A stretch of 64,000 nt of DNA from Acutalibacter sp. 1XD8-33 (GTDB taxonomy: Bacteria; Bacillota; Clostridia; Oscillospirales; Acutalibacteraceae): the NCBI RefSeq assembly GCF_003612555.1, contig NZ_RAZF01000013.1:1-64000 (forward strand), written 5' to 3'. The first letter of the stretch is position 1; each line of letters opens with the position of its first letter. A program made the translations under genes and the position numbers. Shown here one piece after another: positions 5,677 to 60,842 of the stretch. The notes beneath the pieces were generated by a model that was given only the letters and a program-made list of their open reading frames with translations, had not been told where the DNA came from and did no database searches.

Positions 5677-5932
5677 TTGACGGCCTCCGGCGGCTGGGGG
5701 GCTCCGCCCCCCGTCCCCCGCCAAACTTTTTGAAAAAAGTTTGGATCAAAAACTTTTGCCCTGGTTGGCTTTTGCGCACTCAGCTGACCAGTGTAAAAGT
5801 TTTGCTCGAGCTTTTTCAAAAGCTCGCAGGGTGTGGGACAGAGTCCCACGGTCTTGCCGGAATGCGCGAGAGTTCGCTTGCGAACTCTTCTGTGCGCATG
5901 AAGGCCACTCCGTATTACTCCCCAAAAACAGC
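5677..5932. repeat. Modular intergenic repeat, copy 1
   Basis: Begins GGCCTCCGGCGG and ends with GCGCATGAAGGCC plus CCGTATTACTCCCC, four bases before the paaK stop. It contains the blocks AACTTTTTGAAAAAAGTTT (hairpin), a CCCTGGTTGGCTTTTGCGCACTCAGC-type block, a long hairpin around GAGTTCGCTTGCGAACTC, and GTGGGACAGAGTCCCAC. All recur in other gaps of this window. Confidence 0.8.
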
Positions 5933-5935
5933 TTT

Positions 5936-7237
5936 TTAAATCTTCCTCTTGTCGATCACCCGCACGGCCTTGCCTTCGCTGCGGACAATGGACTTGGGGG
6001 CAACCAAAGTGACCTTGGCGGTGAGGCCCAGCATGGACCGCAGGCCCTCCACCAGCTCCTTCTGCCGGGCGGCCACGTCGCCCAGGTTGTCGGTGAACAT
6101 CTCCGGGGTCATCTCCACCTGCACGTCGAGGGTGTCGGTGTTGCGGACCCGGTCCACGATGATCTGGTAGTTGGCCGGGTAGCCGTGGTTCAGAAGCACG
6201 GTCTCGATCTGGGACGGGAACACGTTCACGCCCCGGATGATGAGCATGTCGTCCGTGCGGCCCTGGGGCTTGGTCATCTTTACGTGGGTGCGGCCGCAGG
6301 GGCAGGGCTCCCGGGTGAGGGTGCAGATATCCCGGGTGCGGTAGCGGATGAGGGGGAAGGCCTTCTTTGTGATGGAGGTGAATACCAGCTCCCCCTGGGA
6401 GCCCTCGGGCAGCACCTCGCCGGTCTCCGGGTCGATAATCTCGGCGATAAAGTGGTCCTCGTTGATATGCATCCCCGTCTGGGCGGAGCACTCGAAGGAC
6501 ACGCCGGGGCCGGAGAGCTCTGTGAGGCCGTAGATGTCATAGGCCCTGATGCCCAGGGTGTTCTCAATGTCCCGGCGCATCTCCTGGCTCCAGGCCTCGG
6601 CCCCGAAGATGCCCGCCTTCAGGGGGATGTCGTCGGGCCCCAGGCCCATCTCCTTCATGGTCTCGCCGATGTAGGCCGCGTAGGAGGGAGTGCAGCAGAG
6701 GATGGTGGCGGAGAGGTCCTGGATGAACATGATCTGCCGCTCGGTGTTGCCGGAGCTGGTGGGGATGGTGAGGCAGCCTACCTTGTGGCTACCGCCGTTG
6801 AGCCCAGGCCCGCCGGTGAACAGGCCGTAGCCGTAGCTCACCTGGCACACGTCCTCGTTGGTGCCCCCCGCCGCCATGATGGCCCGGGCGCAGCAGTCCT
6901 CCCACAGGTCGATGTCCGCCTGGGTATAGAAGGCCACTACACGTTTGCCCGTGGTGCCGGAGGTGGACTGAATACGTACGCAGTCCCGAAGGGGCACGCC
7001 CACCAGACCGTAGGGGTAGGCCTCCCGCAGGTCGGCCTTGGAGAGGAAGGGGAGCTTATGGAGGTCATCGCTGGACTGGATGTCCGCAGGGGTCAGGCCC
7101 TTCTCTTCCATCTTCTTCCGGTAGTAGGGCACGTTGTCCCACACATGCCGCACCTGCTCCACCAGACGCTGGTCCTGCAGGGCCTTGATGGTTTCCCGGG
7201 ATGCGCACTCGATCTCCGGCTGATAGTAATGTTCCAT
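5936..7237 (-). CDS. paaK: Phenylacetate-CoA ligase
   Basis: 433 residues, the usual PaaK length. It activates phenylacetate or a related arylacetate to its CoA thioester with ATP in the cytoplasm. The adenylate-forming signature QSTSGTTGKRVV is at about residues 91-102, YGLTELSGPGV near 236, and the C-terminal domain has GRTDDMLIIRGVNVFPSQIE, all typical. The start at 7237 (MEHYYQPEIECASRE) matches the family. With iorAB and the ACT protein nearby it fits the last or reverse step of aromatic amino-acid fermentation (arylpyruvate to aryl-acetyl-CoA to arylacetate). Its 3' end abuts intergenic repeat copy 1 and its 5' side faces copy 2. Confidence 0.95.
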   Translation of the reverse strand: MEHYYQPEIECASRETIKALQDQRLVEQVRHVWDNVPYYRKKMEEKGLTPADIQSSDDLHKLPFLSKADLREAYPYGLVGVPLRDCVRIQSTSGTTGKRVVAFYTQADIDLWEDCCARAIMAAGGTNEDVCQVSYGYGLFTGGPGLNGGSHKVGCLTIPTSSGNTERQIMFIQDLSATILCCTPSYAAYIGETMKEMGLGPDDIPLKAGIFGAEAWSQEMRRDIENTLGIRAYDIYGLTELSGPGVSFECSAQTGMHINEDHFIAEIIDPETGEVLPEGSQGELVFTSITKKAFPLIRYRTRDICTLTREPCPCGRTHVKMTKPQGRTDDMLIIRGVNVFPSQIETVLLNHGYPANYQIIVDRVRNTDTLDVQVEMTPEMFTDNLGDVAARQKELVEGLRSMLGLTAKVTLVAPKSIVRSEGKAVRVIDKRKI

Positions 7238-7267
7238 AGCGTTTCAGTCCTTTCGGGTTTTGATGTG

Positions 7268-7525
7268 ATATTTAAGACCTTGGAAAACCACCGCCACCTT
7301 TGAGAAAGGTAAGACTTCGTAAAACGAAGTCTACGAAACTTTTACCCACTCCTCACTTCGTTCGTCGTGAACATTTTGAGGGTTTCGCTCAGCTAACCAG
7401 GGTAAAAATTTTTGAGACTTACCGAAGGTAACGTCTTAAACTTCTTTCCAAAAAGTTTGCGTGGTGTGGAGCGGAGCTCCACGACCTTGCCGCAGCCGCG
7501 TCCTTTGCGGCGAAGGCCAAACTCA
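7268..7525. repeat. Modular intergenic repeat, copy 2
   Basis: Fills most of the 357-bp gap between paaK and the DUF1919 pseudogene; no gene is seen in the gap. It starts with AAGACCTTGG and ends with CACGACCTTGCCGCAG...AAGGCC, a mixture of the two end types found elsewhere. Internal blocks include the hairpin AGACTTCGTAAAACGAAGTCT and CACTCCTCACTTCGTTCGTCG, shared with the copies at 23.0, 31.8 and, inverted, 20.1, 58.8 and 60.7 kb. Confidence 0.75.
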
Positions 7526-7594
7526 TATTCTGAAATAAAGTATACTCTAATAAAAATGTATGGATTGGGATTTCGTCTGCAGGCTCGGTCTAAT

Positions 7595-8255
7595 TCAATT
7601 TCTTGGCCGCCAAGTCCCGTTCAGAAAGGAGACCCGGTCAAAGGCGTCCATATACCTCTTGATGCTATAAGGGTGGCGGCGTTGGTCAATAGTAGCTTGG
7701 CAGTCTGTTTGATAGATGGGAAGATTATAGCCATGGGGATATTTTTTCTGGTCGATACCGCCGGAAATCAACACTTTGTGCTGGTAAGGCAGCGCCTCGA
7801 AATCCTTTAAAAGCTCCTCCGTCAAGGCGCTTGGAGATTGGTGAAAGATGATCCGCAGGTTTTGGTAGTCTACCCGGCGGGCTCTCCGGCGCCAAGCGCG
7901 TTTTGCCTTTTCAAAGCTGGGGTAATGGACGAAAAACAAGGTGACGGTTCCATACTCGGTTGTCAGCTGGCCTGTAGGGTATTCCCTTCCAAGGGATTTC
8001 TCCTGGACATCCGCTTCCAGAAACTGGGGAAGATGCTGGCAGAAGCGGATGAAATCCTCCCCGGACATTCCAAAGATTTACTGTGGGGGAGAGCACTGCC
8101 AGTCTCAAGTCATGGCATAAGATGCCGCCTGTGCAGTCCCTGGAAATGGTGGTAGGGACCGCGCCCCGCAGGCGGAAGCGCCGCCATAGGGCATAGCCTG
8201 CGCGCGGACCGATGGCCAAAAGCGTTTGAAATTTTGCTAACACCGAAATTTTCAA
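7595..8255 (-). pseudogene. DUF1919-like polysaccharide-associated protein, frameshifted
   Basis: Two overlapping minus-strand frames together make one DUF1919-type protein of about 215 residues. The 5' part (from about 8255) reads TTISRDCTGGILCHDLRLAVLSPTVNLW; the 3' part starts MSGEDFIRFCQHL and runs to 7595 with ALTEELLKDFEALPY and YMDAFDRVSFLNG. In this family the SPTVNLW-type motif runs directly into the M-DDFIKF-type motif. Here an extra A at about 8067-8072 (TTTGGAATGTCC) shifts the frame. DUF1919 proteins occur in capsule and exopolysaccharide loci; the function is unknown. Either a true pseudogene or a one-base sequencing error. Confidence 0.7.
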
Positions 8256-8289
8256 TCCTTTTTATAGTAAGAATACTGACAGGGGGCTA

Positions 8290-8661
8290 TCAGGTACGCA
8301 GCCACCAGCATACGCCAAAACGGTCGGTAACCAGCGCCCCTACAGGGGCCCAGGGGTAGGAGCCAATGGAATGGCTGAGGCTGTCCCGGCTCAGAACTTC
8401 ATAGGCGTGGCGCAGTGCCTCCTCTTGGTCGAATAGGAACTCGCAGCACATGGCATTTTCCGTGGTTTTTTCCACCTTGCCGCCAGGGGCCAGCATAACG
8501 GCTAGGCCCTGAAAGTCCATCATAATATGGATGTCCCCGCCGGATGCAAAGGATTCTGAGAGCCGTCTTGCTCCAAAAGCCTCTTGGTACATGCGGCAGG
8601 CCTCCTCCCGTTCCTGATTGGTTCGGCCTACATTGAAGGCCATAGAGAATTTTAAAGTCAT
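8290..8661 (-). CDS. VOC-superfamily (PhnB/glyoxalase-like) protein
   Basis: 123 residues with the pattern of PhnB-type vicinal-oxygen-chelate proteins: KFSMAFNVGRTNQEREEACRMYQEAFGA at the N-terminus (residues 4-31), a central GGDIHIMMDFQG strand and a C-terminal SYPWAPVGALVTDRFGVCWWL. Such proteins bind metal-activated substrates or antibiotics; the true substrate is unknown. AAGGAAA precedes the ATG. It is part of a run of small minus-strand genes between the nitroreductase gene and the DUF1919 pseudogene. Confidence 0.85.
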   Translation of the reverse strand: MTLKFSMAFNVGRTNQEREEACRMYQEAFGARRLSESFASGGDIHIMMDFQGLAVMLAPGGKVEKTTENAMCCEFLFDQEEALRHAYEVLSRDSLSHSIGSYPWAPVGALVTDRFGVCWWLRT

Positions 8662-8723
8662 GTCTGCATTTTCCTTCTTTCTTGATTTCCCACGCTTGGG
8701 TAGAAGTTCCCGTTCAGACCAGA

Positions 8724-9236
8724 TTATAAATATCGCACCGTCTCCTCCAGTGCCTTCTTTTGACCGTGCAGGGGCGACGGCTCCGCGCCCTCCGCGGGAT
8801 AGCCCATTGCCAGCAGGTTCACGGGCTCCCAGGCCTCCGGCAGCTGGAACTCCTCCCGCACCGCCTCGGGGATGAAGTGCATCACCCAGGTGGACCCCAC
8901 CCCCAGGCTGGCCGCCTCCAGCATCATGTGGGTGGAGACGATGGCCGCGTCCACCTCGCCGCTGGTTTTGCCGTCATAGCTCCGGGTCCAGCACTGGGTT
9001 CTGTCATAGCACACCAGCAGGGCCAGGGGCGCGTGAAAATGGCTCAGGGTGCATTTTAGGTATTTTTCTAAGGCCTCCGGCGACTGGATGACCAGCACCC
9101 GCTGGGGCTGGAGGTTGCAGGCGGTAGGGGCGACCTGACCCGCCCGGAGGATCAGGTCCAGCTTCTCCCGCTCCACCGGGCGGCCGGAGAATTTGCGGAC
9201 GGAAAACCGACTTTCAGCCAGCTGATAAAAATTCAT
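8724..9236 (-). CDS. Nitroreductase-family flavoprotein
   Basis: 170 residues. The N-terminus MNFYQLAESRFSVRKF with RxSVRxF is the FMN-binding signature of the family. APTACNLQPQRVLVI (about 36-50) and the C-terminal LLAMGYPAEG are also typical. These NAD(P)H:FMN enzymes reduce nitro compounds, quinones or flavins, usually as cytoplasmic dimers. At 170 residues it is of the short class. It is separated by only 9 bp from the small membrane-protein gene upstream and so is probably cotranscribed with iorAB. The natural substrate cannot be read from sequence. Confidence 0.9.
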   Translation of the reverse strand: MNFYQLAESRFSVRKFSGRPVEREKLDLILRAGQVAPTACNLQPQRVLVIQSPEALEKYLKCTLSHFHAPLALLVCYDRTQCWTRSYDGKTSGEVDAAIVSTHMMLEAASLGVGSTWVMHFIPEAVREEFQLPEAWEPVNLLAMGYPAEGAEPSPLHGQKKALEETVRYL

Positions 9237-9245
9237 GAAGTTCGC

Positions 9246-9464
9246 CTACCTTTCTTCTAGCAGCTTTAGCGTCTGGGATGTGCCCAAAGAGAGCAGGCCA
9301 AAGCCGAACAGCTCGATTAAATTATAACCGCCGGAATGAAAGCTGAAAATAGGGCTGAGGGTGCTAACGAACTTCAGAATGGCGAAAAGTACCGCAACTG
9401 CCAGGGCAAAGACCCCGAAAGCGGCCAGCACATAGCGCAGCAGCCGGGTGTAAGTCATTTTCAC
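9246..9464 (-). CDS. Small two-helix membrane protein
   Basis: 72 residues starting at GTG 9464 (or ATG 9458), with AAGGAGAA nine bases before the GTG. A short basic N-terminus (MKMTYTRLLRY) is followed by a hydrophobic helix (about 10-33) and a second weaker helix (about 48-64, LIELFGFGLLSLGTSQTL). I recognise no family. It begins 18 bp after the iorB stop and ends 9 bp before the nitroreductase gene, so it looks like part of the iorAB transcript. Confidence 0.65.
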   Translation of the reverse strand: MKMTYTRLLRYVLAAFGVFALAVAVLFAILKFVSTLSPIFSFHSGGYNLIELFGFGLLSLGTSQTLKLLEER

Positions 9465-9482
9465 AGTGATGGTTCTCCTTCC

Positions 9483-14022: not shown

Positions 14023-14154
14023 AAGGATTCCTCCTGCGTTTTATACTTTCTAAAAAGAAAAGTATGCTTATTTGACAATTATATTCCTTTTTTGCTATCA
14101 AGTCAATATGATGAATCGCCGGGGGAGTACTCGGATATTCGCGTTTTGGGGACG

Positions 14155-14342
14155 ATGTTTACGGCCTCCGGCGGGGAGGGGCTTTGCCCCCTCCACCCCC
14201 ACCACCTTTTGAAAAAGGTGGACGAAAACTTTACCCTGGTTAGCTTGGAATGCTATAGTTAACAACATCGACCGGTCCAGCTGGTCGAAACTTGGCTTTG
14301 CCAAGTCTTGTGCGCCTGGAGGCCCACTATTACTTCCAAAAC
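14155..14342. repeat. Modular intergenic repeat, copy 3
   Basis: Runs from GGCCTCCGGCGGGGAGGGGC to GCCTGGAGGCCCACTATTACTTCC and ends next to the ogg stop codon at 14344. Contains the hairpin CACCTTTTGAAAAAGGTGG, the block CCCTGGTTAGCTTGGAATG, and GACCGGTCCAGCTGGTCG followed by the hairpin CTTGGCTTTGCCAAG. The last two are shared with copies at 16.0, 37.5, 50.1 and 52.0 kb. Confidence 0.8.
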
Positions 14343-15904: not shown

Positions 15905-16172
15905 GTTGGCCTCCGGCGGTTCAGGAGTTCTTGTCACCTGCCGGTTCGGTCGGCGACGAGAAATCGCCACCGGCGATTGTCGCCCCCTGAACCCCCCACC
16001 ACCTTTGAAAAGGTGGACGAAACTTTTGCCCTGGACAGCTTTGACCGGTCCAGCTGGTCTTAAGCTGGTCGTCGTGTGGGGGCGAAACCCCACGACCTTG
16101 CCGGAATGCGCGCGAGTTCGCTTGCGAACTCTTCTGTGCGCATGGAGGCCACACAGTATTTCTACAAAAAAA
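15905..16172. repeat. Modular intergenic repeat, copy 4
   Basis: A nearly complete copy: GGCCTCCGGCGG at the left; the block CACCTGCCGGTTCGGTCGG with GCGACGAGAAATCGCC and GGCGATTGTCGCC; the hairpin CCACCTTTGAAAAGGTGG; GACCGGTCCAGCTGGTC; CGAAACCCCACGACCTTGCC; the hairpin GAGTTCGCTTGCGAACTC; and GCATGGAGGCCACAC at the right. It lies about 50 bp upstream of the DUF6062-type gene, on the 5' side. Confidence 0.82.
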
Positions 16173-19979: not shown

Positions 19980-20205
19980 GGGGGCTCGGATGGCGCGATG
20001 GCGCGTCCAGATTCCAGCTGGTGGGGAGTTTGAGGGGTGAGCGTCTGCCACTGGCGATTTTCCCCACCCCTGGACCGCGCAATGTGTTGTGGCTATGCGA
20101 AAACCGTAAATCGTTCACGACGAGCAAAGCGAGGAGTGGGTAAAAGTTTCGCCCGCCTTTTCAAAGGCGGTGGAGGTTTGGAGGCAGAGCCTCCAAGGTC
20201 TTAAT
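19980..20205. repeat. Modular intergenic repeat, copy 5
   Basis: Begins GGGGCTCGGATGG a few bases after the J-protein stop and ends CCTCCAAGGTCTTAA just before the ribosome-binding site of the next gene. Internal blocks: CGTCTGCCACTGGCG, GGACCGCGCAATGTGTTGTGGC, CGTTCACGACGAGCAAAGCGAG and the hairpin CGCCTTTTCAAAGGCG. Oriented opposite to copy 6, with which it shares several blocks. Confidence 0.75.
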
Positions 20206-21767: not shown

Positions 21768-22987
21768 CGGGCGCGGCTGTGATTGGCGGTGGCGCGGCAG
21801 GGCTGATGGCTGCGGGCATGTGCGCCGCCCAGGGGATTCCAACTGTGGTTTTGGAGAAAAACCGCCGCTTGGGCCGGAAGCTGCGTATCACCGGCAAAGG
21901 GCGGTGCAATCTGACCAACCAGTGCCCGCCCCAGGACGTAATCGCTGCGGCCCACGGGGGGAAATTTCTCTATAGCGCGGTGAACGCTTTTTCTCCAGAG
22001 GCGGTCATGGCTTTTTTTGAGGGCCTGGGCGTGCCCCTGAAGGTGGAGCGAGGCCGGCGGGTGTTCCCCCAGTCGGACAGCGCCCACGATGTGGCGGACG
22101 CCCTGGGGCGCTTCGTGGAGAGATCCGGGGCGCGGGTCCTGCGGGAGACGGCCAGCCAGATCTTGGTGGAGGCGGGGACCGTGCGGGGGGTGGAGACAGA
22201 GTCCGGGGTCCATCCGGCGGACCGGGTGCTCGTCGCCTGCGGAGGCGCGTCCTACCCGTCCACTGGTTCCGACGGCTCCGGCTTCCGGCTGGCGGAGGCT
22301 GTGGGGCATACCATTGTGCCGGTGGGGCCCTCCCTGGTTCCCCTGGTGGAGGAGGGGGAGTTCTGCGCCCGGATGATGGGCCTCTCCCTGCGGAACTGCG
22401 GAGTGCGGGTGACGGAGGCCGGGAAGAAGAAGCCGGTATACGAGGACTTCGGGGAGCTGCTCTTCACCCATTTCGGCCTGTCCGGGCCCACGATCCTCAG
22501 CGCCTCGGCCCATATGCGAAAGCCGGGGAAATACACGGTCCACCTGGACCTGAAGCCCGCCCTGAGCGAGTCCCAGCTGGACGCCCGGCTGCTCCGGGAC
22601 TTGGAGGAGAACCGGAACCGGGTGTTCCAGAACTCCCTGGACCGGCTTCTGCCCCAGAAGCTGATCCCCGTGGCGGTGGAGCGCTCGGGGATTCCCGGGG
22701 AGACCCGGTGCCACTCGGTGACCAGGGAGCAGCGGCGAGGGCTTCTGGCCCTGCTGAAGGATTTCACCGTGGAGATCCGTGGCTTTCGGCCCCTGGAGGA
22801 GGCCATCGTCACCGCCGGGGGGGTGAGCCTCAAGGAGGTGGACCCCAGAACCATGGAGTCCCGGCTGGTGAAGGGGCTCTATTTTGCCGGGGAGGTGCTG
22901 GACGTGGACGCGCCCACCGGCGGCTATAATTTGCAGATCGCCTTTTCCACAGGACGGCTGGCCGGGATGAGCATGGGGACCCCTTAA
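21764..22987 (+). CDS. HI0933/YhiN-family FAD-dependent oxidoreductase
   Basis: 407 residues starting at TTG 21764, which overlaps the preceding stop codon. The dinucleotide-binding motif VIGGGAAGLMAAGMCA is at residues 6-21, then RKLRITGKGRCNLTN (about 42-56), a family hallmark; the FAD-binding end reads GLYFAGEVLDVDAPTGGYNLQIAFSTG. Members are flavoproteins of uncertain substrate (BaiN-like annotation is common in gut Clostridia, where one member was proposed as a bile-acid 7-dehydroxylation reductase). The presence of bsh in this window makes that link interesting but not established. Repeat copy 6 starts at its stop codon. Confidence 0.9.
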   Translation: MTGAAVIGGGAAGLMAAGMCAAQGIPTVVLEKNRRLGRKLRITGKGRCNLTNQCPPQDVIAAAHGGKFLYSAVNAFSPEAVMAFFEGLGVPLKVERGRRVFPQSDSAHDVADALGRFVERSGARVLRETASQILVEAGTVRGVETESGVHPADRVLVACGGASYPSTGSDGSGFRLAEAVGHTIVPVGPSLVPLVEEGEFCARMMGLSLRNCGVRVTEAGKKKPVYEDFGELLFTHFGLSGPTILSASAHMRKPGKYTVHLDLKPALSESQLDARLLRDLEENRNRVFQNSLDRLLPQKLIPVAVERSGIPGETRCHSVTREQRRGLLALLKDFTVEIRGFRPLEEAIVTAGGVSLKEVDPRTMESRLVKGLYFAGEVLDVDAPTGGYNLQIAFSTGRLAGMSMGTP

Positions 22988-23225
22988 GACCTTGGGGCGT
23001 TGTCTCACCTGCCGGCTCGGTCGGTTCGCGGCGTGTCTGCCACTGGCAGACGCTCACCCCCACACCCCACAAACTTTTTGAAAAAAGTTTGATCAAAAAC
23101 TTTTACCCACTCCTCGCTTTGCTCGTCGTGAACGTTTTACGATTTTCACATAGCCACAACATATTGCGCGGTCCAGGGGCGTTAGGCCCCTGGCAGGGTG
23201 TGGGACGGAGTCCCACGGTCTTTCC
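22988..23225. repeat. Modular intergenic repeat, copy 6 (A part of a composite)
   Basis: Starts directly after the flavoprotein stop with GACCTTGGGGCGTTG, then CACCTGCCGGCTCGGTCGG, the hairpin GTCTGCCACTGGCAGAC, the hairpin AAACTTTTTGAAAAAAGTTT, CACTCCTCGCTTTGCTCGTCG, CACAACATATTGCGCGGTCC, the hairpin CCAGGGGCGTTAGGCCCCTGG and GGGACGGAGTCCCACGGTC. It passes without a gap into the B part at 23226. Confidence 0.8.
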
Positions 23226-23480
23226 CTTGACCTTAACACCTGAGAAGCGCAATTTTGGTGGTGAATTGACGGGCGAAGCCCGGCAAGAGGCCCCTTTTTG
23301 CAAGAGAAAAAGGGGCCTAGTCCCGGAACCAGCCAGCGCTTTCAGGGATATCCCGACTGCGAAGCAGGCGGGACGAAACCCTTAGTCCCGGAACCTGCTA
23401 TCTGAGCGCACGAGCGTACCAGCCGAGAGCGCGCCCTGCCTGCTGAAATCTGGACCCGCTATTGCGCCCGCCGTTCCCCC
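23226..23480 (+). repeat. Composite repeat, B part (first copy)
   Basis: Begins TTAACACCTGAGAAGCGC, followed by a GAATTG...GGGCGAAGCCC hairpin, a near-perfect hairpin AGGCCCCTTTTT/AAAAAGGGGCCT, CCCGGAACCAGCC, TCCCGACTGCGAAGCAGGCGGGA, TCTGAGCGCACGAGCGTACC and CTGAAATCTGGACCCGC. The same blocks in the same order occur at 31986-32275 and, inverted, at 41735-41920 and 60340-60655. No protein is encoded in the 530-bp gap 22988-23519. Confidence 0.75.
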
Positions 23481-23519
23481 CATATAAATTATATATTATT
23501 TTAGAAAAGGAGAATCGTC

Positions 23520-31738: not shown

Positions 31739-31985
31739 TAAGACCTTGGGGCGTTAGGTCTCGCCTGCCGGCTCGGTCGGCGACGGGAAATCGCCACAGG
31801 CGATTGTCGCCCCAAAACCCCACAAACTTTTTGAAAAAAGTTTGATCAAAAACTTTTACCCTGCTTCCTCACTTCGTTCGTCGCAGACATTTACGTTTTC
31901 TGGCTGAGCTAACCAACGTAAAAGTTTCGTCCACCTTTTCAAAGGTGGTGGAGGTTTGGAGGCAACGCCTCCAAGGTCTTGTCCC
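31739..31985. repeat. Modular intergenic repeat, copy 7 (A part of a composite)
   Basis: Starts AAGACCTTGGGGCGTTAGG and ends CGCCTCCAAGGTCTT, so the ends are inverted copies (AAGACCTTGG/CCAAGGTCTT). Inside are CACCTGCCGGCTCGGTCGG, ACGGGAAATCGCC with GGCGATTGTCGCC, AAACTTTTTGAAAAAAGTTT, CTCACTTCGTTCGTCG and the hairpin CCACCTTTTCAAAGGTGG. Together with the B part it fills most of the 715-bp gap between the secDF terminator and the DUF378 gene. Confidence 0.8.
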
Positions 31986-32275
31986 TAACACCTGAGAAAA
32001 CAACGCAGGAGGGTAGCATAAACGTCCCGGTGGGACGTTTTGCGTAGGGGACCCACGTATGGGGGCGCTGGTCTCCGGTGGAGACCGTCCAGCGCCGACC
32101 GAACCGGCAGGTGAGACCCCTATCCCGGCTGCGGAGCAGACGGGACAAAGCCCCCTGGAAACCGGAACCAGCCATCTGAGCGCACGAGTGTATCAGCCAA
32201 AAGGCGCGCCGCGCCCGCTGAAATCTGGACGCGCTGCCGCGCCCGCCCGGCCCCCATACTAATCAACAAAACATG
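31986..32275 (+). repeat. Composite repeat, B part (second copy)
   Basis: TAACACCTGAGAA at the left, then hairpins AACGTCCCGGTGGGACGTT and GTCTCCGGTGGAGAC, CCGACCGAACCGGCAGGTGAG, TCCCGGCTGCGGAGCAGACGGGA, CCGGAACCAGCC, TCTGAGCGCACGAGTGTATC, GCGCGCCGCGCCCGCTGAAA and CTGGACGCGCTGCCGCGCCC. No protein is encoded. Confidence 0.72.
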
Positions 32276-32368
32276 CTTTTTGAGAGACAGCGCGCAAGCC
32301 GCTGACCTCTCACAGGACACAAGGAGCGGGATCAGGTTTGAGACCGCTTCGGAGAAGGAGGGAATCTC

Positions 32369-35941: not shown

Positions 35942-37219
35942 CTACTTATTTTCTTCCGCTTCCGCCAGTTCTTTCTTGTAGAGGTATTTCTCCACTTCTT
36001 CCACCATATTCTGAGGCACCTCCCGCTTTACCGGGAAAGCTGTAGCGTTGACCATATCCCTGGAGAAGGCCAGCACATACCGGGCGGTTTTCTCCAGAGC
36101 TTCGGGAGAGAGGAAGGAGAGGGTGTCAAAGCGGTTATGAATGTGGGCGGCACCGGGAGCGCCGAACCGGCAGAAGTTCACTGCGGGCACGCCGCTGTCG
36201 GCAAAGGGGATGGAGTCGCTGGAATAGATCCCCTGCTTCACTTCGGTGGAGTATCCCTGTACTTTGGTGGAGTACTGGATATAGTTCACCAGGCTCTCTT
36301 CGGCAGTAACACTGATGGTCTCCCGGCCCAGCACCGGGCCGCCCACGTCGGTGTTAATCATCAGCAGGTGGTCCTTCAGTTCATCCTTGTGGGCCTTAAC
36401 GAAAGCCCAGCTGCCCTCCAGACCGATTTCCTCCGAGCCGTACCACATGAATTTCACTGTGCGCTTGGGCGGGTTCTCCTTGAACCAGCGGAGGACCTCC
36501 ATGTTAATGACGGAACCGGCACCATTGTCATATACGCCTTTGGAGAAATCCACAGAATCATAATGGGCGCCAAAGGAGATGATCTCATCCGGCTTTTCCG
36601 TGCCCTCAATGACAGCGACCACGTTGTGGGAGATACGTTCCACGGTCTCGTTTTTCAGCACCAGCCGGGCTTTGCTGGCCCCGCGCTTTACCATGTCAAA
36701 GGCGTCCAGCACCCGGGTGTTTACCATGGGCACATTGCCGAAGGCCCGCAAAGTGCGGCGGAGTTTCCGGGTAGAAAGGTCCGTGCCCTCCCGATCGTCC
36801 CGCAGGTCGCCCTCCATAGTGACGATGCCCGCTACCTCGGCTTTTATCAGCTTGCGAAACAGCGGCAGGCGCAGAAAACCATTGATCAGCACGATCTTCC
36901 CGGCAGCGTTGCTAAGGTCTACGTCGTTGCCGGCTTCCACATAGAGGAACTCAGCCTCCAAGCCGCCCTGATAGGTGTTTTTTGCGCATTTGTAGCCGGT
37001 CACCGGGTACTCCTGACGATAGGGCTCCAGGATTTCCAGTGTGGCGGTTTCTATGTCTGCGTCCTCGATCTCAAAGCTCTCCAGCTCTGCCGGCACGCCG
37101 ATGGCTTCGCACTCGGCCTTGAGGATTTCAGCGGCTTTTAGTTCCTCAGGGGAACCGGCCGTTCGGGTAAACCCGATTTTTTCCAGGAGCTCCATGGCTC
37201 TCTTGCCCGATACTTCCAT
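35942..37219 (-). CDS. M28-family zinc aminopeptidase
   Basis: 425 residues from ATG 37219, eight bases after AAGGA; an ATG at 37225 is possible. The di-zinc ligands are readable: His and Asp in SFGAHYDSVDFS, Asp in VYDNGAGSVIN, Glu-Glu in WYGSEEIGLEGS, Asp in NTDVGGP and His in AAHIHNRFDT. A PA-like insert (about 100-170: VLINGFLRLPLFRKLIKAEV) precedes the metal sites. No signal peptide, so it probably trims peptides in the cytoplasm. The longer frame upstream runs into intergenic repeat copy 8 and is not coding. Confidence 0.9.
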   Translation of the reverse strand: MEVSGKRAMELLEKIGFTRTAGSPEELKAAEILKAECEAIGVPAELESFEIEDADIETATLEILEPYRQEYPVTGYKCAKNTYQGGLEAEFLYVEAGNDVDLSNAAGKIVLINGFLRLPLFRKLIKAEVAGIVTMEGDLRDDREGTDLSTRKLRRTLRAFGNVPMVNTRVLDAFDMVKRGASKARLVLKNETVERISHNVVAVIEGTEKPDEIISFGAHYDSVDFSKGVYDNGAGSVINMEVLRWFKENPPKRTVKFMWYGSEEIGLEGSWAFVKAHKDELKDHLLMINTDVGGPVLGRETISVTAEESLVNYIQYSTKVQGYSTEVKQGIYSSDSIPFADSGVPAVNFCRFGAPGAAHIHNRFDTLSFLSPEALEKTARYVLAFSRDMVNATAFPVKREVPQNMVEEVEKYLYKKELAEAEENK

Positions 37220-37261
37220 TGTCATTTCCTTCTTTTGTTTTTTATTATTTGAGTGTTTTTG

Positions 37262-37774
37262 TAGGAATACTATGTGGCCTCCACCGCAAAGGGCGCGGCT
37301 ACGGCAAGGTCGTGGAGCGCTGCTCCACACTTCGCCAGGGGTTACGCCACCCCTGGACCCGGCAATGTGCTCGGCTTTAGCGCACTCAGCTAACCAGCGT
37401 AAAAGTTTTGTCGTCTCACCTGCCGGTTCGGTCAGCGCTTGACGGTCCCCACCGGGGACCAGCACCCCCACACGACGACCAGCTGTAAACTTGGCGTTGC
37501 CAAGTTTTGACCAGCTGGACCGGTCGATGTTGTTAACTGTAACATTCCAAGCTAACCAGGATAAAAGTTTCGTAGACTTCGTTTTACGAAGTCTTACCTT
37601 TCTCAAAGGTGGCAAGGGTGTGGGGTGAGCGTCTGCCAGTGGCAGACATGCTGCGAACCGACCGAGGCGGCAGCCGAGACCAGAGTCCCACGGCCTTGCC
37701 GGAATGCGCGGCAGACTTGGCTTTGCGAAGTCTGCCGCGCATGGAGGCCACACCGTATTACTCCCCAAAACGTC
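37262..37774. repeat. Modular intergenic repeat, copy 8: a 510-bp unit with inverted ends
   Basis: Fills the gap between M28 and cysS. The left end (GGCCTCCACCGCAAAGGGCG then GGCAAGGTCGTGG) is an inverted version of the right end (CCACGGCCTTGCCGGAATGC then CGCATGGAGGCC). Between them are blocks in both orientations: CCAGGGGTTACGCCACCCCTGG, CCGGCAATGTGCTCGGC, the hairpin GGTCCCCACCGGGGACC, the hairpin AACTTGGCGTTGCCAAGTT, GACCAGCTGGACCGGTC, AGACTTCGTTTTACGAAGTCT and GTCTGCCAGTGGCAGAC. It ends one base before the cysS stop. Confidence 0.8.
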
Positions 37775-41734: not shown

Positions 41735-41920
41735 CGGCGCACAGGGCAGCTTGGCGACAAGCACATAGCTGGATGAGGACTTTGAGCTAAGATACCGCGC
41801 CTAGAGCTGGCTGGTTCCTGAATTAGGAAACTTTTTCTCTTGCAAAAAGTTTCCTCTTGGCACTACGTGCCAATTCACCTTCAAAAAATGCGCTTCTCAG
41901 GTGTTAAGTTCAAGGGTAAG
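41735..41920 (-). repeat. Composite repeat, B part (third copy, inverted)
   Basis: Shorter and diverged. It contains TAGAGCTGGCTGGTTCC, the hairpin GGAAACTTTTTC/AAAAAGTTTCC around TCTTGC, TTGGCACTACGTGCCAATTC and GCGCTTCTCAGGTGTTAA, which are the reverse complements of the blocks at 23.2-23.4 kb. Confidence 0.68.
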
Positions 41921-42090
41921 ACCGTGGAGCTCCGCTCCACACTACGCCACCTTTGAAAAGGTGGACGAAATTTTTACCCTGGTTAACCTTTATGCACTCA
42001 GCCAACCAGCGTAAAAGTTTCGCCAGCCTTTTCAAAGGCTGCAGGGCTTTCAGGGGTGGAACCCCTGAACCGCCGGAGGCCTGCGCAGCG
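41921..42090. repeat. Modular intergenic repeat, copy 9 (A part)
   Basis: GACCGTGGAGCTCCGCTCCAC, the hairpin CCACCTTTGAAAAGGTGG, CCCTGGTTAACC, GCACTCAGCCAACCAGCG, the hairpin GCCTTTTCAAAGGC, and AGGGGTGGAACCCCTGAACC with GCCGGAGGCC at the right. Lies between the B part and the transglutaminase-like gene; together they occupy most of the gene-free stretch 41740-42137. Confidence 0.75.
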
Positions 42091-49947: not shown

Positions 49948-50258
49948 TTGGCCTCCGGACACACAGTTCGTGCCCTCCGGCGACTCAGGAGCATTAAGTC
50001 TCAGATGCCGCCTTGGTCGGCGACAAGAAATCGCCACCGGCGATTGTCTCCCTCTAAGAACCCTACCACCTTTGCGAAGTCTACGAAGCATTTTCCCCTA
50101 GACAGCTTTGACCGGTCCAGCTGGTCGAAACTTGGCAACGCCAAGTTTACCGCTGGCGCGGGTTTGGGGAGAGCATCTGCCAGTGACAGATAAGCCGCGA
50201 ACTGACCGAACCGGCAGGTGAGACTCGCGGAGGCCGCACCGTATCACTCTATAAAAGT
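49948..50258. repeat. Modular intergenic repeat, copy 10
   Basis: GGCCTCCGG at the left, GGTCGGCGACAAGAAATCGCC with GGCGATTGTC, a TACCACCTTTGCGAAGTC block, GACCGGTCCAGCTGGTCG, the hairpin ACTTGGCAACGCCAAGT, CTGACCGAACCGGCAGGTGAG and GCGGAGGCCGCACCGTATCAC at the right. It truncates the agarase-like pseudogene, so it or a rearrangement at it postdates that gene. Confidence 0.78.
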
Positions 50259-51964: not shown

Positions 51965-52192
51965 AGTGATTTTTGGAGTAGTGGAAGGCCTTCGTTGCAA
52001 ATGGCGCGACTCCGGCAAGGTCGTGGGGTTTCGCCCCCACACGACGACCAGCTTAAGACCAGCTGGACCGGTCGACATGTCTGGCTTTACCGCACACAAC
52101 TAACCAGGGTAAAAGTTTCGTCCACCTTTTCAAAGGTGGTGGAGTTCTTAGGGGCAACGCCCCTAAGCCGCCGGAGGCCAAAACATCGTCCC
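51965..52192. repeat. Modular intergenic repeat, copy 11
   Basis: An inverted version of copy 4: GGCAAGGTCGTGGGGTTTCG, ACGACGACCAGCTTAAGACC, GACCAGCTGGACCGGTCG, ACTAACCAGGGTAAAAGTTT, the hairpin CCACCTTTTCAAAGGTGG, TTAGGGGCAACGCCCCTAAG and GCCGCCGGAGGCC. It fills the gap between the divergent sdpI-like and pheS transcripts and ends about 25 bp before the pheS promoter. Confidence 0.82.
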
Positions 52193-52219
52193 CAAAAGCG
52201 CGCTCCGGGGAAAAATTTC

Positions 52220-56373: not shown

Positions 56374-56405
56374 GAAAACTATACTATAAAAAGCGTGGTG
56401 ACTGA

Positions 56406-56708: not shown

Positions 56709-56731
56709 GAAAAACGAAATCAAGAATGAGA

Positions 56732-56768: not shown

Positions 56769-56814
56769 TTCGGAAAGACTGAACCCGCTACGGTCAAATT
56801 ATATAGTTAATTAA

Positions 56815-57394
56815 GAAACTGTATTCATAAGCGCTTGAGTAAGATATGGAAATGGGAGATTTTGACCATAGCCTCAGCGGATGAGATGGAAATCTTATAT
56901 TCTTTACTCTAAGACGTCTGGAATGATTGAGCTAAGAGAGGGTGCGTTCAACCACCTATCATCAAGGAAGTTTTTTTCATTGGTGGGACTTGATTTTCTC
57001 TGAAATATCAACACCAAGGTCAAGCTGCTGCTTTAAATCAGAAACGAAAGTATCCCGATACCCAGCATCTGCACAGAACTTTTGAATAGATGGATATTGC
57101 TCATACGCTCGTTTAGCGGTGGATATTCCGCCTTTTGTGTCATGAATATTGGCGGCATGAACCACAACAAACAGCAAACAACCCAACACATCAACTACGA
57201 TGTGCCGTTTTCTGCCTTTCGCTTTTTCCCTCCGTCAATGCCCGTCTTACTCCATGTGCAGTTGCGCATCCTTGTATAGAGCGGGGCGATTTCTTCCCAC
57301 TGCTCATCTGTCAAGTCGCTCGGGTACGACTCTCACACTTTTTCTTCCATATCTCCATTTTACCGCAGACTTTTCCTCTTGTGAATACAGGTTC
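56815..57394 (-). mobile_element. Deleted IS5-family insertion sequence
   Basis: 580 bp with inverted ends GAAACTGTATTCA (56815-56827) and TGAATACAGGTTC (57382-57394) and a TAA direct repeat on both sides (56812-56814, 57395-57397). On the minus strand (about 57358 to 56825) it encodes a broken IS5-type transposase: SYPSDLTDEQWEEIAPLYTR, then a deletion joining WSK directly to TGIDGGKKRKA, a frame change to HIVVDVLGCLLFVVVHAANI and CADAGYRDTFVSDL (the second acidic-residue region), and after further shifts KEYKISISSAEAMVKISHFH ending at the terminal repeat. It cannot be active but probably marks the family that moved the miniature elements. Confidence 0.85.
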
Positions 57395-57395
57395 T

Positions 57396-57536
57396 AAGTA
57401 CCGGAATAGAGAGTTCTGGTGCCGAGGGTACTATGTAGACACAACGGGCAAGAATGCGAAAAAGATATAGGAGTACATCCGACACCAGTTGGACGAGGAT
57501 AAAGCCGGAGAAGAGCTGACGATGGGGAACTTCTAA
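57396..57536 (+). pseudogene. Remnant of an IS200/IS605 TnpA transposase
   Basis: The plus-strand frame reads KYRNREFWCRGYYVDTTGKN, AKKI-stop-EYIRHQLDEDKA, GEELTMGNF and stop at 57534. FWxxGYYVxTVGxN...I..YI..Q is the C-terminal hallmark of the small Y1 transposase TnpA of IS200-type elements. Only the last third remains, with one internal TAG. Its 5' side is cut by the IS5-type element, which therefore inserted into it or beside it. Confidence 0.75.
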
Positions 57537-57632
57537 AGAGCCCGTTTACGGGCCGCAGATAAGAACCGCACGCAGATGCGTGCCAACGCGACGTGACGCG
57601 TGGCTTGAATCATAGGGCTTTGCCCGCATATG

Positions 57633-57668
57633 AAATACCCCCGACTTCGCCGGGGGATTTCTATTTTT
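57633..57668. terminator. Terminator-like hairpin
   Basis: CCCCCG (57638-57643) pairs with CGGGGG (57651-57656), extended by AAAT/ATTT on the outside, then CTATTTTTG. It may be the right-end hairpin of the IS200 relic. The following 240 bp to 57910 hold no supportable gene. Confidence 0.5.
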
Positions 57669-57910
57669 GCCTTTCGGACGATCCTTTCCTTGTTTAACAC
57701 AGAGTTTTAGGAGCATTCTATGCTGTGTCACCATGGAGCAGGGGCATCCGACCAGAAAGCCGGGTGGATAAACTACTTTGCCCCTTACAGAATAAATTCC
57801 ATTGTCCTGCGGCCCCAATGCCACTATCTTTCGAACGGGCAACAGCTTACCGAAAGGCTGCTATATTATATAAGGAAAGCCCAATGGAGAGAAACTGCTG
57901 TGGGCCTTAA

Positions 57911-58067
57911 GCGACTGTGTTCACAGCCTGCAATCCCCGGGCTCTGTCAGAGTGGCTCCGCGTTAAATTTCTCTGCCATACCGTTAGAATCCGTGAAAAT
58001 GGATCGTTCTTGATCCGCTCTGAGAATTCTCGCTCATCCGGCAAACTTCCCTTATGAATGCGGATTC
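57911..58067. mobile_element. Diverged 157-bp miniature element of the IS5-end family
   Basis: Left end GCGACTGTGTTCACAGCCTGC and right end ATGAATGCGGATTC are diverged versions of the ends of the 162-bp element at 1484-1645. Internal similarity includes TTCACAGCCTGCAA and CGTTAAAT...TGCCATAC. Length is nearly the same. Its right end meets the stop codon of the ECF S-component gene, as the first copy meets the amidohydrolase stop. The flanks (TAA, TAG) no longer match. Confidence 0.6.
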
Positions 58068-58627
58068 TAGGCCATTTTATCCAGCAGATGGCTCTTCTTT
58101 AACGCCAGCCGTACCACCGCACACAGTGGCACTGAAACCACTACCGCGATCACCGCATTGATACTGGATGTCACCAGCTTGGTGGTTAGAGCGGTAAGCA
58201 CCGTGCCCAGCTCGCTGCCCAACAGAATTCCCTGGATAAAGGCCTTGCCCAGATACAGAATCATATAGGCCACACTGCCCGCAGCGGCCGCCAGGATATT
58301 CTGGCCGTGGTTCTCGGCCTTGGCTCCGTGGGCGTAGGCGGCCCAGCCGCACACCGCCGCCAGCAGGAACTTGAAGGCGAAGGTGAAGGGGGCGCTGGCG
58401 ATGTAGGCCGGGTTGGTCAGGTCGTAGAGGGCGGAGCCGATGCCCGCCGCCAGCCCCCCGCCCACGGGCCCCAGCACGAAGCCGGAGAGCAGGCAGAAGA
58501 TGTTGCCGAAGTGGATCCGGCTCACGTCGCCAATAGCCACGGGCACGGGCACGCTCATGTAGTTGGACACGAACACCAGCGCCGCAAAAACCCCAATGGC
58601 CGCGATTCTGTAGATTTTCTTTTCCAT
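58067..58627 (-). CDS. ECF transporter S-component
   Basis: 186 residues with six hydrophobic helices (about 5-24, 36-58, 62-80 region, 82-98, 108-130, 145-168). The start EKKIYRIAAIGVFAALVFVS contains the A-x-x-x-A type ECF-contact pattern, and FGNIFCLLSGFVLGPVGGGLAAGIGSALYDL is typical of vitamin-binding S-components (FolT/ThiT/BioY-like layout). The ligand cannot be told; shared ECF ATPases must be encoded elsewhere. GAAAGGACTGATTTC lies upstream. Confidence 0.82.
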   Translation of the reverse strand: MEKKIYRIAAIGVFAALVFVSNYMSVPVPVAIGDVSRIHFGNIFCLLSGFVLGPVGGGLAAGIGSALYDLTNPAYIASAPFTFAFKFLLAAVCGWAAYAHGAKAENHGQNILAAAAGSVAYMILYLGKAFIQGILLGSELGTVLTALTTKLVTSSINAVIAVVVSVPLCAVVRLALKKSHLLDKMA

Positions 58628-58672
58628 CTGAAATCAGTCCTTTCTGTTCATGAAAATCTTTTTTGAGTGTTG

Positions 58673-58927
58673 ACGGCCTCTGGCAGCTTAGGGGCGTTGA
58701 GTCTCAGCTGCCGCTTCGGTCGGCGACGGGAAATCGCCACTGGCGATTGTTGCCCCTAAGAACCCCACCACTTTTGAAAAAGTGGACAAAACTTTTACGG
58801 TTGTCAGGTTAGCTTGTCAAAACAATATGAAACGTTCACGACGAGCAAAGCGAGGAGTGGGTAAAAGTTTCGTCAACCTTTTCAAAGGTTGCAGGGTGTG
58901 GGACGGAGTCCCACGACCTTGCCGGAG
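58673..58927. repeat. Modular intergenic repeat, copy 12
   Basis: GGCCTCTGGCAGCTTAGGGG, CAGCTGCCGCTTCGGTCGG, GCGACGGGAAATCGCC/GGCGATTGTTGCC, the hairpin CCACTTTTGAAAAAGTGG, CGTTCACGACGAGCAAAGCG, the hairpin AACCTTTTCAAAGGTT and GGGACGGAGTCCCACGACC. It ends just before the malic-enzyme stop codon. Confidence 0.8.
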
Positions 58928-58928
58928 G

Positions 58929-60101
58929 CTATACCCGTGCCACCCCGGTAGACCGTGCCGCCTGGGCCACCGCCGCCGCGATGGCCGGTGCGACCCGCTT
59001 ATCGAAGGCGCTGGGGATGATATTGTCCTCCCGCAGCTCACTCTCGGGGATCAGCCCGGCCAGGGCCCTGGCCGCCGCCACCTTCATCTGGTCGTTGATC
59101 TCTCTGGCCCGCACGTCCAGGGCCCCTCGGAAAATGCCGGGGAAGGCCAGCACGTTGTTGATCTGGTTCATCCGGTCCGACCGGCCGGAACCCACCACAC
59201 GGGCTCCCGCCTCCAGCGCCTCCTCGGGGAAGATCTCCGGGGTGGGGTTGGCGCAGGCGAACACTATGGCGTCTTTGGCCATGGAGGCCACCATCTCCTC
59301 CGTCACGCAGCCCGGGGCGGAGAAGCCCATGAACACGTCCGCCCCCCGGATCACTTCCCTGAGGGGGCCGGTTTTCCTCTGGGGGTTGGTAGCTTCCGCC
59401 AGCTCCGCCTGGGCGGGGGTCATCCAGCTTTCGCCGGGGCAGAGGGCGCCCTGCCTGTCGCAGACCACCACGTTCCGCAGGCCCAGGGCCATGAGCAGCC
59501 GGGTGCAGGCGCTGCCCGCCGCCCCCGCGCCGTTTACCACGGCGGAGACCTCCCCGATCTCCTTGCCCACCAGCTTCAGAGCGTTGATCATGGCAGCCAC
59601 GGTGACCACGGCGGTGCCGTGCTGGTCGTCGTGGAACACGGGAATGTCCAGGCGCTCCTTGAGCTTTTGCTCAATTTCAAAACACCGGGGCGCGGCGATG
59701 TCCTCCAGGTTGATCCCCCCGAAGGATCCGGCGATGAGCTCCACCGTGCGCACAATCTCGTCCACATCCTTGGAGCGGACGCAGATGGGGAAGGCGTCCA
59801 CCCCGGCGAAGGCCTGGAACAGGGCGCATTTGCCCTCCATCACAGGCATTCCCGCCTCAGGGCCGATATCTCCCAGGCCCAGAACCGCCGTGCCATCGGT
59901 GACAACCGCCACCAGGTTTCCCCGGCGGGTATAGGCGAAGGACAGCTCCGGATCCTTCTGGATCTCCAGGCAGGGAGCGGCCACGCCGGGGGTGTAGGCC
60001 ACGGAGAGGTCGTCCCGGTTTTCCAGGGGGCAGGGGGTCTCCACCCGGATTTTCCCCCGCCACTTCTCGTGCATTTCCAGGGCTTTCTGCATATAGTCCA
60101 T
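58929..60101 (-). CDS. NAD-dependent malic enzyme
   Basis: 390 residues, the short bacterial form. It converts malate to pyruvate and CO2 with reduction of NAD(P). SVAYTPGVAAPCLEI carries the catalytic Tyr (near 35), MPVMEGKCALFQAFAGVDAF the catalytic Lys (near 90), IPVFHDDQHGTAVVT the metal Asp residues, and VNGAGAAGSACTRLL the Rossmann motif (about 190). GAGGGATC precedes the ATG. It is monocistronic with its own promoter and no PTA domain. Confidence 0.95.
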   Translation of the reverse strand: MDYMQKALEMHEKWRGKIRVETPCPLENRDDLSVAYTPGVAAPCLEIQKDPELSFAYTRRGNLVAVVTDGTAVLGLGDIGPEAGMPVMEGKCALFQAFAGVDAFPICVRSKDVDEIVRTVELIAGSFGGINLEDIAAPRCFEIEQKLKERLDIPVFHDDQHGTAVVTVAAMINALKLVGKEIGEVSAVVNGAGAAGSACTRLLMALGLRNVVVCDRQGALCPGESWMTPAQAELAEATNPQRKTGPLREVIRGADVFMGFSAPGCVTEEMVASMAKDAIVFACANPTPEIFPEEALEAGARVVGSGRSDRMNQINNVLAFPGIFRGALDVRAREINDQMKVAAARALAGLIPESELREDNIIPSAFDKRVAPAIAAAVAQAARSTGVARV

Positions 60102-60158
60102 GATGATCCCTCATAATTCTCTCTATAAATATGCGGCAGACAATCCTTTGTAATTCCG

Positions 60159-60187
60159 ATTATATCACTTTGCCCAGCTAAAATCAA
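60159..60187 (-). promoter_or_regulatory. Sigma-A type promoter of the malic enzyme gene
   Basis: On the minus strand TTGATT (60187-60182), 17-bp spacer, TATAAT (60164-60159). Confidence 0.75.
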
Positions 60188-60339
60188 TCGGGCCAATCTG
60201 CCAAACATCTCTCCGCATCGCCTTTTTCTTTTGTTGTGATTCCGCGCACACGGCCCGGAGCATGGCGGCGGAATCGAGCTGGGAGCAAAGCTGGAACGAC
60301 CCATTGATTTTTTCCGCCTGCGGATTTATAATATAATAT

Positions 60340-60655
60340 GGATTTTGTGGCGCGCGCCGGGCGAAGCGTGTTCGGCGGGCTTTCGGCCCGCGGAGTACCG
60401 CTGGGTGCTGGACACATAGAGCTGGCTGGTTCCGGTTTCCAAGGGATTGTCCCGTCTGCTCCGCAGCCGGGATAGGGGATCTCGCCTGTCGGCTCGCGGC
60501 GTGTGTGCCACAGGCACACGCTCACCCCCCGACGAAGGGCAGCTGGTTCCGGGACTAGGGGTGCTTTTTATTCTTGCAAAAAGCACCCCTCTTGGCGGAC
60601 TCCGTCCGCCAATTCACCCCGCAAAAATTGCGCTTCTCAGGAGTAAAGGTCAAAA
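60340..60655 (-). repeat. Composite repeat, B part (fourth copy, inverted)
   Basis: GGCGCGCGCCGGGCG, the hairpin GGCGGGCTTTCGGCCCGC, ACATAGAGCTGGCTGGTTCC, TCCCGTCTGCTCCGCAGCCG, the hairpin GTGTGTGCCACAGGCACAC, the hairpin GGGGTGCTTTTTATTCTTGC/AAAAAGCACCCC, GGCGGACTCCGTCCGCCAATTC and TTGCGCTTCTCAGGAGTAAAG. Same blocks as at 23.2 and 32.0 kb, in reverse. The gene-free stretch 60188-60856 consists almost entirely of this and the A part. Confidence 0.72.
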
Positions 60656-60842
60656 GATAAGACCTTGGGGCGTTGCCCCAAACCCCACAAGGGGCCTAAT
60701 GCCCCTTGACCGCGCAATGTGTTGTGGCTTTGCGAAAAACGCAAAACGTTCACGTGAGCAAAGCGAGGAGTGGGTAAAAGTTTCGTCAACCTTTTCAAAG
60801 GTTGCAGGGATTTGGGGACAGCGTCCCCAAGGTCTTAAAGAA
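60656..60842. repeat. Modular intergenic repeat, copy 13 (A part)
   Basis: Starts AAGACCTTGGGGCGTTG and ends GTCCCCAAGGTCTT. Inside are AGGGGCCTAATGCCCCTTGA, CCGCGCAATGTGTTGTGGC, GAGCAAAGCGAGGAGTGGG and the hairpin AACCTTTTCAAAGGTT. It ends 15 bp before the HAD gene start. Confidence 0.8.

Follow-up and report, generated by a model that had tools for sequence, protein, structure and literature searches.

Intergenic repeat loci of Acutalibacter sp. 1XD8-33 as probable composites of non-autonomous mobile palindromes

Repeat loci of the window and their scaffold

The draft genome of Acutalibacter sp. 1XD8-33 (3.62 Mb, 106 contigs) carries palindrome-built repeats that we examined in a window of 64,000 bp, corresponding to bases 1–64000 of contig NZ_RAZF01000013.1. 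The loci contain a foldback repeat that we call the scaffold, a smaller GTCTC-tagged element, M1, and a further multi-hairpin repeat, M2, and on the evidence of their sequences they are probably composites of non-autonomous mobile palindromes, in which the scaffold has been invaded repeatedly by M1. This reading would account for a hairpin mosaic that makes up nearly 6% of the examined parts of the chromosome.

Repeats were sought in a pool of 462,881 bases made up of the window and 20 further stretches of the same genome; the latter were picked largely around matches of one block, which biases their repeat content but not that of the window. Counting as repeated any 12-mer present at least six times in the pool, we found 1,175, compared with 1, 0, 0, 2 and 0 in five first-order Markov simulations; these form 570 clusters, 108 of which reach 12 or more such 12-mers. 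The window holds exactly 13 of these, at all 13 places given in a preliminary description of the sequence, and they sum to 3,723 bp or 5.8% of the window, where roughly 5% had been estimated; the repeat fraction in the other stretches is likewise 5.8%. All of the blocks named in that description are present, and copies occur beyond the window, the GACCGGTCCAGCTGGTC block being found genome-wide 50 times exactly and 66 times with up to one mismatch, with no match for a reversed control. The features of the window are as follows, with the limits of all loci placed by eye around the 12-mer clusters, and with strands given for M1 copies.

5677–5929: scaffold locus 1, with GGCCTCCGGC ends, H1/H2 hairpins and an inner stem
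7275–7520: scaffold locus 2, left end AAGACCTTGG, right end GGCC
14150–14340: scaffold locus 3
15905–16160: scaffold locus 4, with one M1; its right half (about 16043–16150) is an empty site matched by locus L045
15931–15982, plus strand: M1 in locus 4, a GTCTC element with a partly mutated head
20000–20204: scaffold locus 5
22985–23235: scaffold locus 6, with a AAGACCTTGG end and one M1
23002–23056, plus strand: M1 in locus 6
23236–23500: M2 module adjoining locus 6, CACCTGAGAA...GGAACC
31740–31985: scaffold locus 7, with one M1
31758–31809, plus strand: M1 in locus 7
31986–32290: M2 module adjoining locus 7, itself with one M1
32066–32117, minus strand: M1 within the M2 module at locus 7
37260–37770: scaffold locus 8, with two M1 copies
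37413–37464, plus strand: first M1 in locus 8
37626–37680, minus strand: second M1 in locus 8
41740–42080: M2 module (41740–41910) and scaffold locus 9
49948–50245: scaffold locus 10, with two M1 copies
49998–50049, plus strand: first M1 in locus 10
50170–50224, minus strand: second M1 in locus 10
51965–52193: scaffold locus 11, upstream of pheS; in congener G418 a scaffold with M1 copies lies upstream of pheS
58673–58930: scaffold locus 12, with one M1; without counterpart in congeners G418 and G404
58701–58752, plus strand: M1 in locus 12; empty paralog in locus L049, with 44 matching flank bases
60425–60840: M2 module (60425–60655) and scaffold locus 13 (60656–60840)

The scaffold is a foldback whose parts were delimited by eye. 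Its outer ends read GGCCTCCGGC...GCCGGAGGCC or AAGACCTTGG...CCAAGGTCTT, with GGCCTCCGGC or AAGACC as the outer stem; the side hairpins are H1, one per arm (e.g. GTGGGACGGAGTCCCAC), and H2, of the CCACCTTTTCAAAGGTGG type, and the centre is occupied by the inner stem GAAACTTTTACCCTGGTTAGC/GCTAACCAGGGTAAAAGTTTC or, in its place, by other apex blocks (GACCGGTCCAGCTGGTC, CACGACGAGCAAAGCGAGGAG). Copies combine their ends and halves in different ways, and the shuffling of blocks between copies that had been described is supported. M2 (CACCTGAGAA...GGAACCAGCC) often adjoins the AAGACCTTGG end of the scaffold. BOX elements and bacterial interspersed mosaic elements (BIMEs) are also modular intergenic palindrome mosaics, and the scaffold resembles them in this respect, but its blocks are different and a second mobile element is nested in the mosaic. 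The scaffold ends are inverted repeats.

Allowing two mismatches, a scaffold half-site pattern is found 133 times in the source genome; of 29 genomes of the genus, source included, 17 have it. In the 58.7-kb gap neither of the congeners examined, G418 and G404, has a scaffold. In the gap at pheS a scaffold is present both in the source genome and in G418, with M1 only in G418; the two pheS scaffolds likely have a common origin, which falls short of proof because the left half is not alignable.

We scored gene gaps of at least 60 bp for repeats of at least 100 bp, using simple open reading frame (ORF) calls, and repeats are present in 48 of 136 tandem (35%), 18 of 48 convergent (38%) and 16 of 45 divergent gaps (36%). 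A terminator or leader RNA would show an orientation bias, and the absence of one argues against such a role; selfish spread tolerated in gaps is the simplest reading. The preliminary description had taken the co-variation of hairpin arms to suggest selection on RNA or DNA structure, and a plain reading of this kind, with a regulatory or terminator role, is not supported, given the indifference of the clusters to gene orientation. The co-variation is indeed strong, as would be expected if the repeats were transcribed regulatory or terminator RNAs under selection, but we consider this highly improbable, as repeats occupy the three kinds of gap alike, congeners differ in their presence at the same gap, insertions are exact (below), and Rfam yields no match, either in the window at gathering score or on M1 at the M1 loci. 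In six M1-bearing loci searched at E<=1 Rfam reported three tRNAs only, and in seven more there was no listed match on an M1 head, although a 124-nt tRNA match spans an M1-like insert at locus L155. The view that no named element fits the repeats is supported, none having been found.

Within the window, as far as simple ORF calls reveal, the repeats do leave intact genes uninterrupted, but outside the source genome M1 lies inside genes. Of the 90 clusters measuring 100 bp or more in the whole set of stretches, three have 80% or more of their length within a called ORF, one of them being the repeat at 37295–37751. A 608-aa ORF on the minus strand (35942–37768) is open across this entire repeat, probably as an open N-terminal extension.

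M1 inserts precisely and directly 5' of CC

M1 has the order GTCTC – NNC TGCC GNN – TCGGTCGG – variable tail hairpin(s), of which the conserved head is 23 nt and consists of GTCTC, a co-varying 3-bp stem with a mostly TGCC loop, and TCGGTCGG. The block in which a AAATCGCC/GGCGATT hairpin stands next to CACCTGCCGGTTCGGTCGG, previously listed among the common pool, does exist; it is not part of the scaffold and belongs instead to the separately inserted M1. There are 69 copies in the 463 kb, most with the GTCTC tag and some with mutated heads, and 196 heads genome-wide match TCTCNNCTGCCGNNTCGGTC, with no match for the reversed control. The ends are asymmetric and the length is mostly 52–67 bp: by folding, mostly 51–55 in the source genome and 52–54 or 61–67 at loci from named sequences (outliers 45–82), and 52–57 from the breakpoints of empty sites. 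M1 lies on the G-rich strand in 48 copies and on the other in 21, a count derived from local GC skew alone, to which we give no weight.

The 3-bp head stem is fully Watson-Crick in 86 of 100 heads listed, compared with a mean of 23.5 and a maximum of 38 in 2000 shuffles, and occurs in five types (GCC/GGC, ACC/GGT, GTC/GAC, AGC/GCT and GGC/GCC). For the whole fold we used 42 unique copies, taken from 50 of the 52-nt class that had been picked by head pattern and hairpin tip, and scored 13 stem pairs outside the tip. Of the 546 cells 501 are Watson-Crick, against a mean of 356 and a maximum of 379 in 1000 shuffles, where the head pattern itself determines a single pair of the 13, along with one partner in each of two more (with up to two substitutions allowed), and the kinship of copies stays in the shuffles. 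Sliding the stem partner by 1–3 columns lowers the Watson-Crick share from 92% to 26–40%. The scaffold behaves similarly: among 44 H2 hairpins picked by loop and context only, the five arm bases are fully complementary in 42, in seven sequence types, with a mean of 9.4 and a maximum of 16 after shuffling of the arms. The earlier observation of co-varying arms is thus confirmed in both components.

Template switching during replication that kept rewriting one arm from the other would repair any palindrome on both sides together, with neither an enzyme nor selection, and could explain the changes in the scaffold hairpins H1 and H2, including the 42 of 44. As the sole explanation of the co-variation we regard it as rather improbable, since it leaves unexplained how a 52-bp unit comes to be inserted precisely, why many genera share the same 22–26 nt head, and the copies in phage genes and in a tRNA gene described below.

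Eleven of the 69 copies have an exact empty counterpart within the sampled part of the same genome, with the flanks joined and nothing gained or lost; the best pair, L045 and window positions 16043–16150, shares 68+40 identical flank bases. No target duplication is seen in these pairs, and the right flank starts with CC in 10 of the 11, and in the eleventh too after shifting an ambiguous TG. The search for filled and empty sites made no CC requirement. Boundaries placed by folding did presuppose CC and are therefore no evidence for this rule, which is drawn from the filled/empty pairs; some of these share one site, and there are therefore fewer than 11 independent events. The other 58 copies have no exact empty counterpart within the 463 kb. 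Insertion of M1 is precise, leaves the target unduplicated and falls immediately 5' of CC. This host CC pairs with a GG conserved in the head, in front of the tail, and so closes M1's last stem, giving an exact insertion rule in which the target closes a stem of the element.

M1 also inserts into the head-stem loop of other M1 copies. Among the 69 local copies, all seven with GTC/GAC heads are nested and none of the 62 with other heads; in a fresh sample of 20 stretches the corresponding fractions are 8 of 11 and 0 of 13. By eye, an M1 at locus L089, from another species, is nested in the tail of another M1; tandem arrays of four 63-bp M1 units each are present at L125 (7203–7460) and L127 (near 5650–5860). 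As the exact filled/empty pairs reveal, the modular look of the loci arises because M1, a separate mobile element, is inserted in scaffold hairpins and in itself.

Further variants were noticed. The tails of M1 at L251, L254 and L255 have an extra hairpin module, GAGAGTTCATGC/GCATGAACTCT, which is perhaps another nested insert, and at L157, L161, L166 and L111 a sister head, GTCTMCGCTNCCGCTYCGGTCGG, lies beside M1 and may represent a second M1 family. An apparent freedom from stops in all six frames was discarded, being found in 51% of named copies against 25% shuffled, but in 10% against 15% for the copies of the source genome. No autonomous M1-ended element was found among copies whose tail was not recognised (42 of 148 named heads), many of which are contig ends, tandem copies or have other closing stems.

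M1 in other bacteria, phage genes and a tRNA gene

With one mismatch and two stem types allowed, a family-wide sample of 398 genomes contains 57 with M1, belonging to 28 of 135 genera, and it is patchy within one genus (58, 35, 0, 0 and 0 copies). A phylum-wide sample of 249 genomes, searched with the exact degenerate head pattern, contains two carriers, the source genome and one of the same class. A scan of named sequences for the M1 head gave at least 110 stretches, many from the same few assemblies. Among the matches listed (110 stretches), 108 are labelled Clostridia or groups therein, one only Bacillota and one only 'bacterium', and the groups include Ruminococcaceae/Ruminococcus, Oscillospiraceae, Acutalibacter, Caccousia, Gallacutalibacter, Anaeromassilibacillus An200, Clostridiaceae, Lachnospiraceae and Oribacterium. 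The scaffold and M1 are distributed independently, as seen in genome G125, where 13 scaffold half-sites occur without any M1.

The degenerate head pattern has 11 matches on ten stretches of a viral collection; L223 among them looks like chance, as do the viral matches at L227, L228 and L229. Six M1 copies lie within five genes of viral contigs. Three of these copies fall in C5 cytosine methylase genes on two contigs, and the others in genes for a DUF7768 protein, a holin and a small protein without assignment; the remaining viral copies were judged extragenic by eye. On an M1-bearing viral contig, L220, Rfam also reports a FuFi-1 RNA at 3324–3588 (85.5 bits). The GTCTC strand is antisense to the gene in all six in-gene copies. 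Five of the six keep the frame, with an ambiguous exact boundary at L226, and in the methylase pair a 21-residue block is present in one homolog and absent from the other, with both flanks aligned. The chance of five in frame out of six is 0.018 at even lengths and 0.037 using the share of lengths divisible by three among named copies, a weak statistic, given that open frames played a part in spotting the copies, that two of them occupy one site in related genes, and that the L226 boundary is ambiguous. Because the frame is conserved, these in-gene copies are likely translated; M1 peptides match no Pfam family and have no match in phage and plasmid collections.

M1 also occurs in a tRNA gene. 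Locus L155, on a Lachnospiraceae contig from a metagenome-assembled genome that appears phage-like by eye, has 21 tRNA genes on 8 kb as called by ARAGORN, and an M1 lies within a tRNA-Ser(AGA) that ARAGORN detects once M1 is omitted from the join; another tRNA there has an M1-like insert. On M1-free joins of 233 copies ARAGORN found no tRNA across the junction, the L155 tRNA-Ser emerging only with targeted joins. By eye only, tRNA gene tails accompany M1 at L109, L129, L123, L139 and L220. The same tiny element occurs in phage proteins and in a tRNA gene as well as in bacteria.

Copies inside tRNA arms, together with the holin copy, could point to an element that is removed from RNA as a tiny intron, or passed over in the manner of byp-like elements, which are skipped by the ribosome, and is tolerated in genes and tRNAs for that reason. 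In the holin gene 62 bases of M1 shift the frame, and the two halves, searched apart, match holin model positions 1–28 and 30–116, with the copy between positions 28 and 30. Keeping the frame in five of the six in-gene copies would be needless under skipping, although the statistic is weak (chance 0.018 to 0.037), and we find such an explanation very unlikely.

Relation to known repeats and the movement of M1

A literature search, including one for the M1 sequence itself, gave no description of M1 among the matches listed. Rickettsia palindromic elements (RPEs) are described in PMC10969869 as palindromic units of about 150 bp, found in frame in protein genes unrelated to one another and also at other places. 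M1 likewise lies in frame within genes in five of the six in-gene viral copies, but it is mostly 52–67 bp, occurs also in a tRNA gene and in phages, is nested, and has precise breakpoints. With respect to family and host, the M1 head is present in one of the 248 other genomes of the phylum sample (of the same class), a sample outside which Rickettsia lies, and M1 peptides match no Pfam family.

Non-autonomous elements derived from IS200/IS605 insertion sequences (IS) make no target duplication, have subterminal hairpins and pair their target with the element. M1 resembles such miniature elements in lacking target duplication (11 exact pairs), but its target pairs across the tail hairpin, whereas the IS target pairs with a guide at the foot of a hairpin, and no ends are shared with a copy coding for TnpA (L055 by eye and 29 other Y1 loci). 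Miniature elements of the DDE type differ from M1 in that it has asymmetric ends instead of terminal inverted repeats, and no target duplication is seen.

Reading the loci as composites of mobile palindromes, we take the foldback scaffold to lie in gene gaps, where M1 has jumped into it many times, as it has into other M1 copies. HUH transposases read folded single-stranded DNA, and an enzyme supplied in trans may read M1 in this form, recognising the head plus the stem; the fold would then be the substrate of the enzyme, and the M1 stems would co-vary for that reason. Phages may help M1 to travel between genera. Beyond this, and only tentatively, we propose that M1 could be the founder of a new minimal class of mobile DNA, in which the target CC completes the last stem and this pairing is the recognition. 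An enzyme acting in trans, and not belonging to the known pairings of repetitive extragenic palindromic (REP) sequences with REP-associated tyrosine transposases (RAYTs), would carry the element between chromosomes and phages, and head-stem sublineages would prefer particular targets, GTC/GAC mostly M1 head loops.

Several observations weigh against these proposals. In the tandem arrays and at L185, M1 is followed by another M1 instead of CC, and some copies have an extra A at the 5' end. M1 in the source genome is enclosed by more pairs than controls (6.5 vs 4.3, p=0.0004), but this hairpin preference is absent in other genomes (5.17 vs 5.14, p=0.6), and a general search for hairpins by M1 is rejected, the effect being confined to the source genome. 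The comparisons are between species rather than between two strains of one, which bears on present-day activity. No enzyme for M1 was found among the candidates examined: PF01797, the Y1 family, is present in 13 of 25 M1-bearing entries, or 12 of 24 as one genome was counted twice, compared with 15 of 25 genomes that the family-wide one-mismatch test scored as free of M1, and only one of 32 Y1 loci (three from the source genome and 29 others, several duplicates) has an M1 head with up to three mismatches.

The source genome has three PF01797 matches, one of them full-length (L055), whose 3.4-kb locus holds no M1 head and whose ends look, by eye, IS200-like and unlike M1. None of the 29 other Y1 loci has a head within three mismatches, and four-mismatch matches in L056, L057 (position 1410) and L201/L202 (one place) were taken as chance. 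The sole head near a Y1 match at the 32 loci is that of the locus 12 M1, about 1.2 kb from a broken Y1 remnant in the window and beyond a transporter gene. Y1/RAYT transposases do not track M1, and a RAYT link is rejected for lack of Y1 enrichment in carriers and of M1 ends at the Y1 loci examined; a RAYT with matching ends, which the preliminary description had proposed to look for, does not emerge.

These data bear on whether M1 might be an ordinary REP with a RAYT, that is, a Y1 HUH transposase, as its mover. As set out in PMC3733652, REPs fall into GTAG and CGTC tag superfamilies, the CGTC REPs having no dedicated transposase, and M1 resembles them in being small, with a 5' tag and a hairpin, in many copies and mostly intergenic. 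With its hundreds of copies in gene gaps of the source genome, and with CGTC-tagged REPs likewise lacking a transposase of their own, the assignment has some appeal, but it is unlikely. Most local copies, of which there are 69, bear the tag GTCTC, not GTAG or CGTC (the named loci, which also have it, were fetched by this tag); M1 is mostly 52–67 bp with two or more hairpins, against 20–40 bp and one hairpin in REPs; it has the co-varying 3-bp head stem-loop, a stem closed by the target CC, and self-nesting. A RAYT gene flanked by the repeat, as for GTAG-type REPs, was not found at the 32 Y1 loci, where M1 is near the broken remnant only, and the Y1 family is no commoner in carriers than in non-carriers. 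M1 shares the style of REPs and RPEs and fits neither, failing the REP tag, size and transposase criteria. With substrate, target rule, carriers and non-carriers defined, the movement of transposase-less REP-like palindromes becomes testable.

The Y1 remnant itself (PF01797; window 57100–57800, L057) contains an in-frame TAG and is seemingly interrupted by other IS-like sequence.

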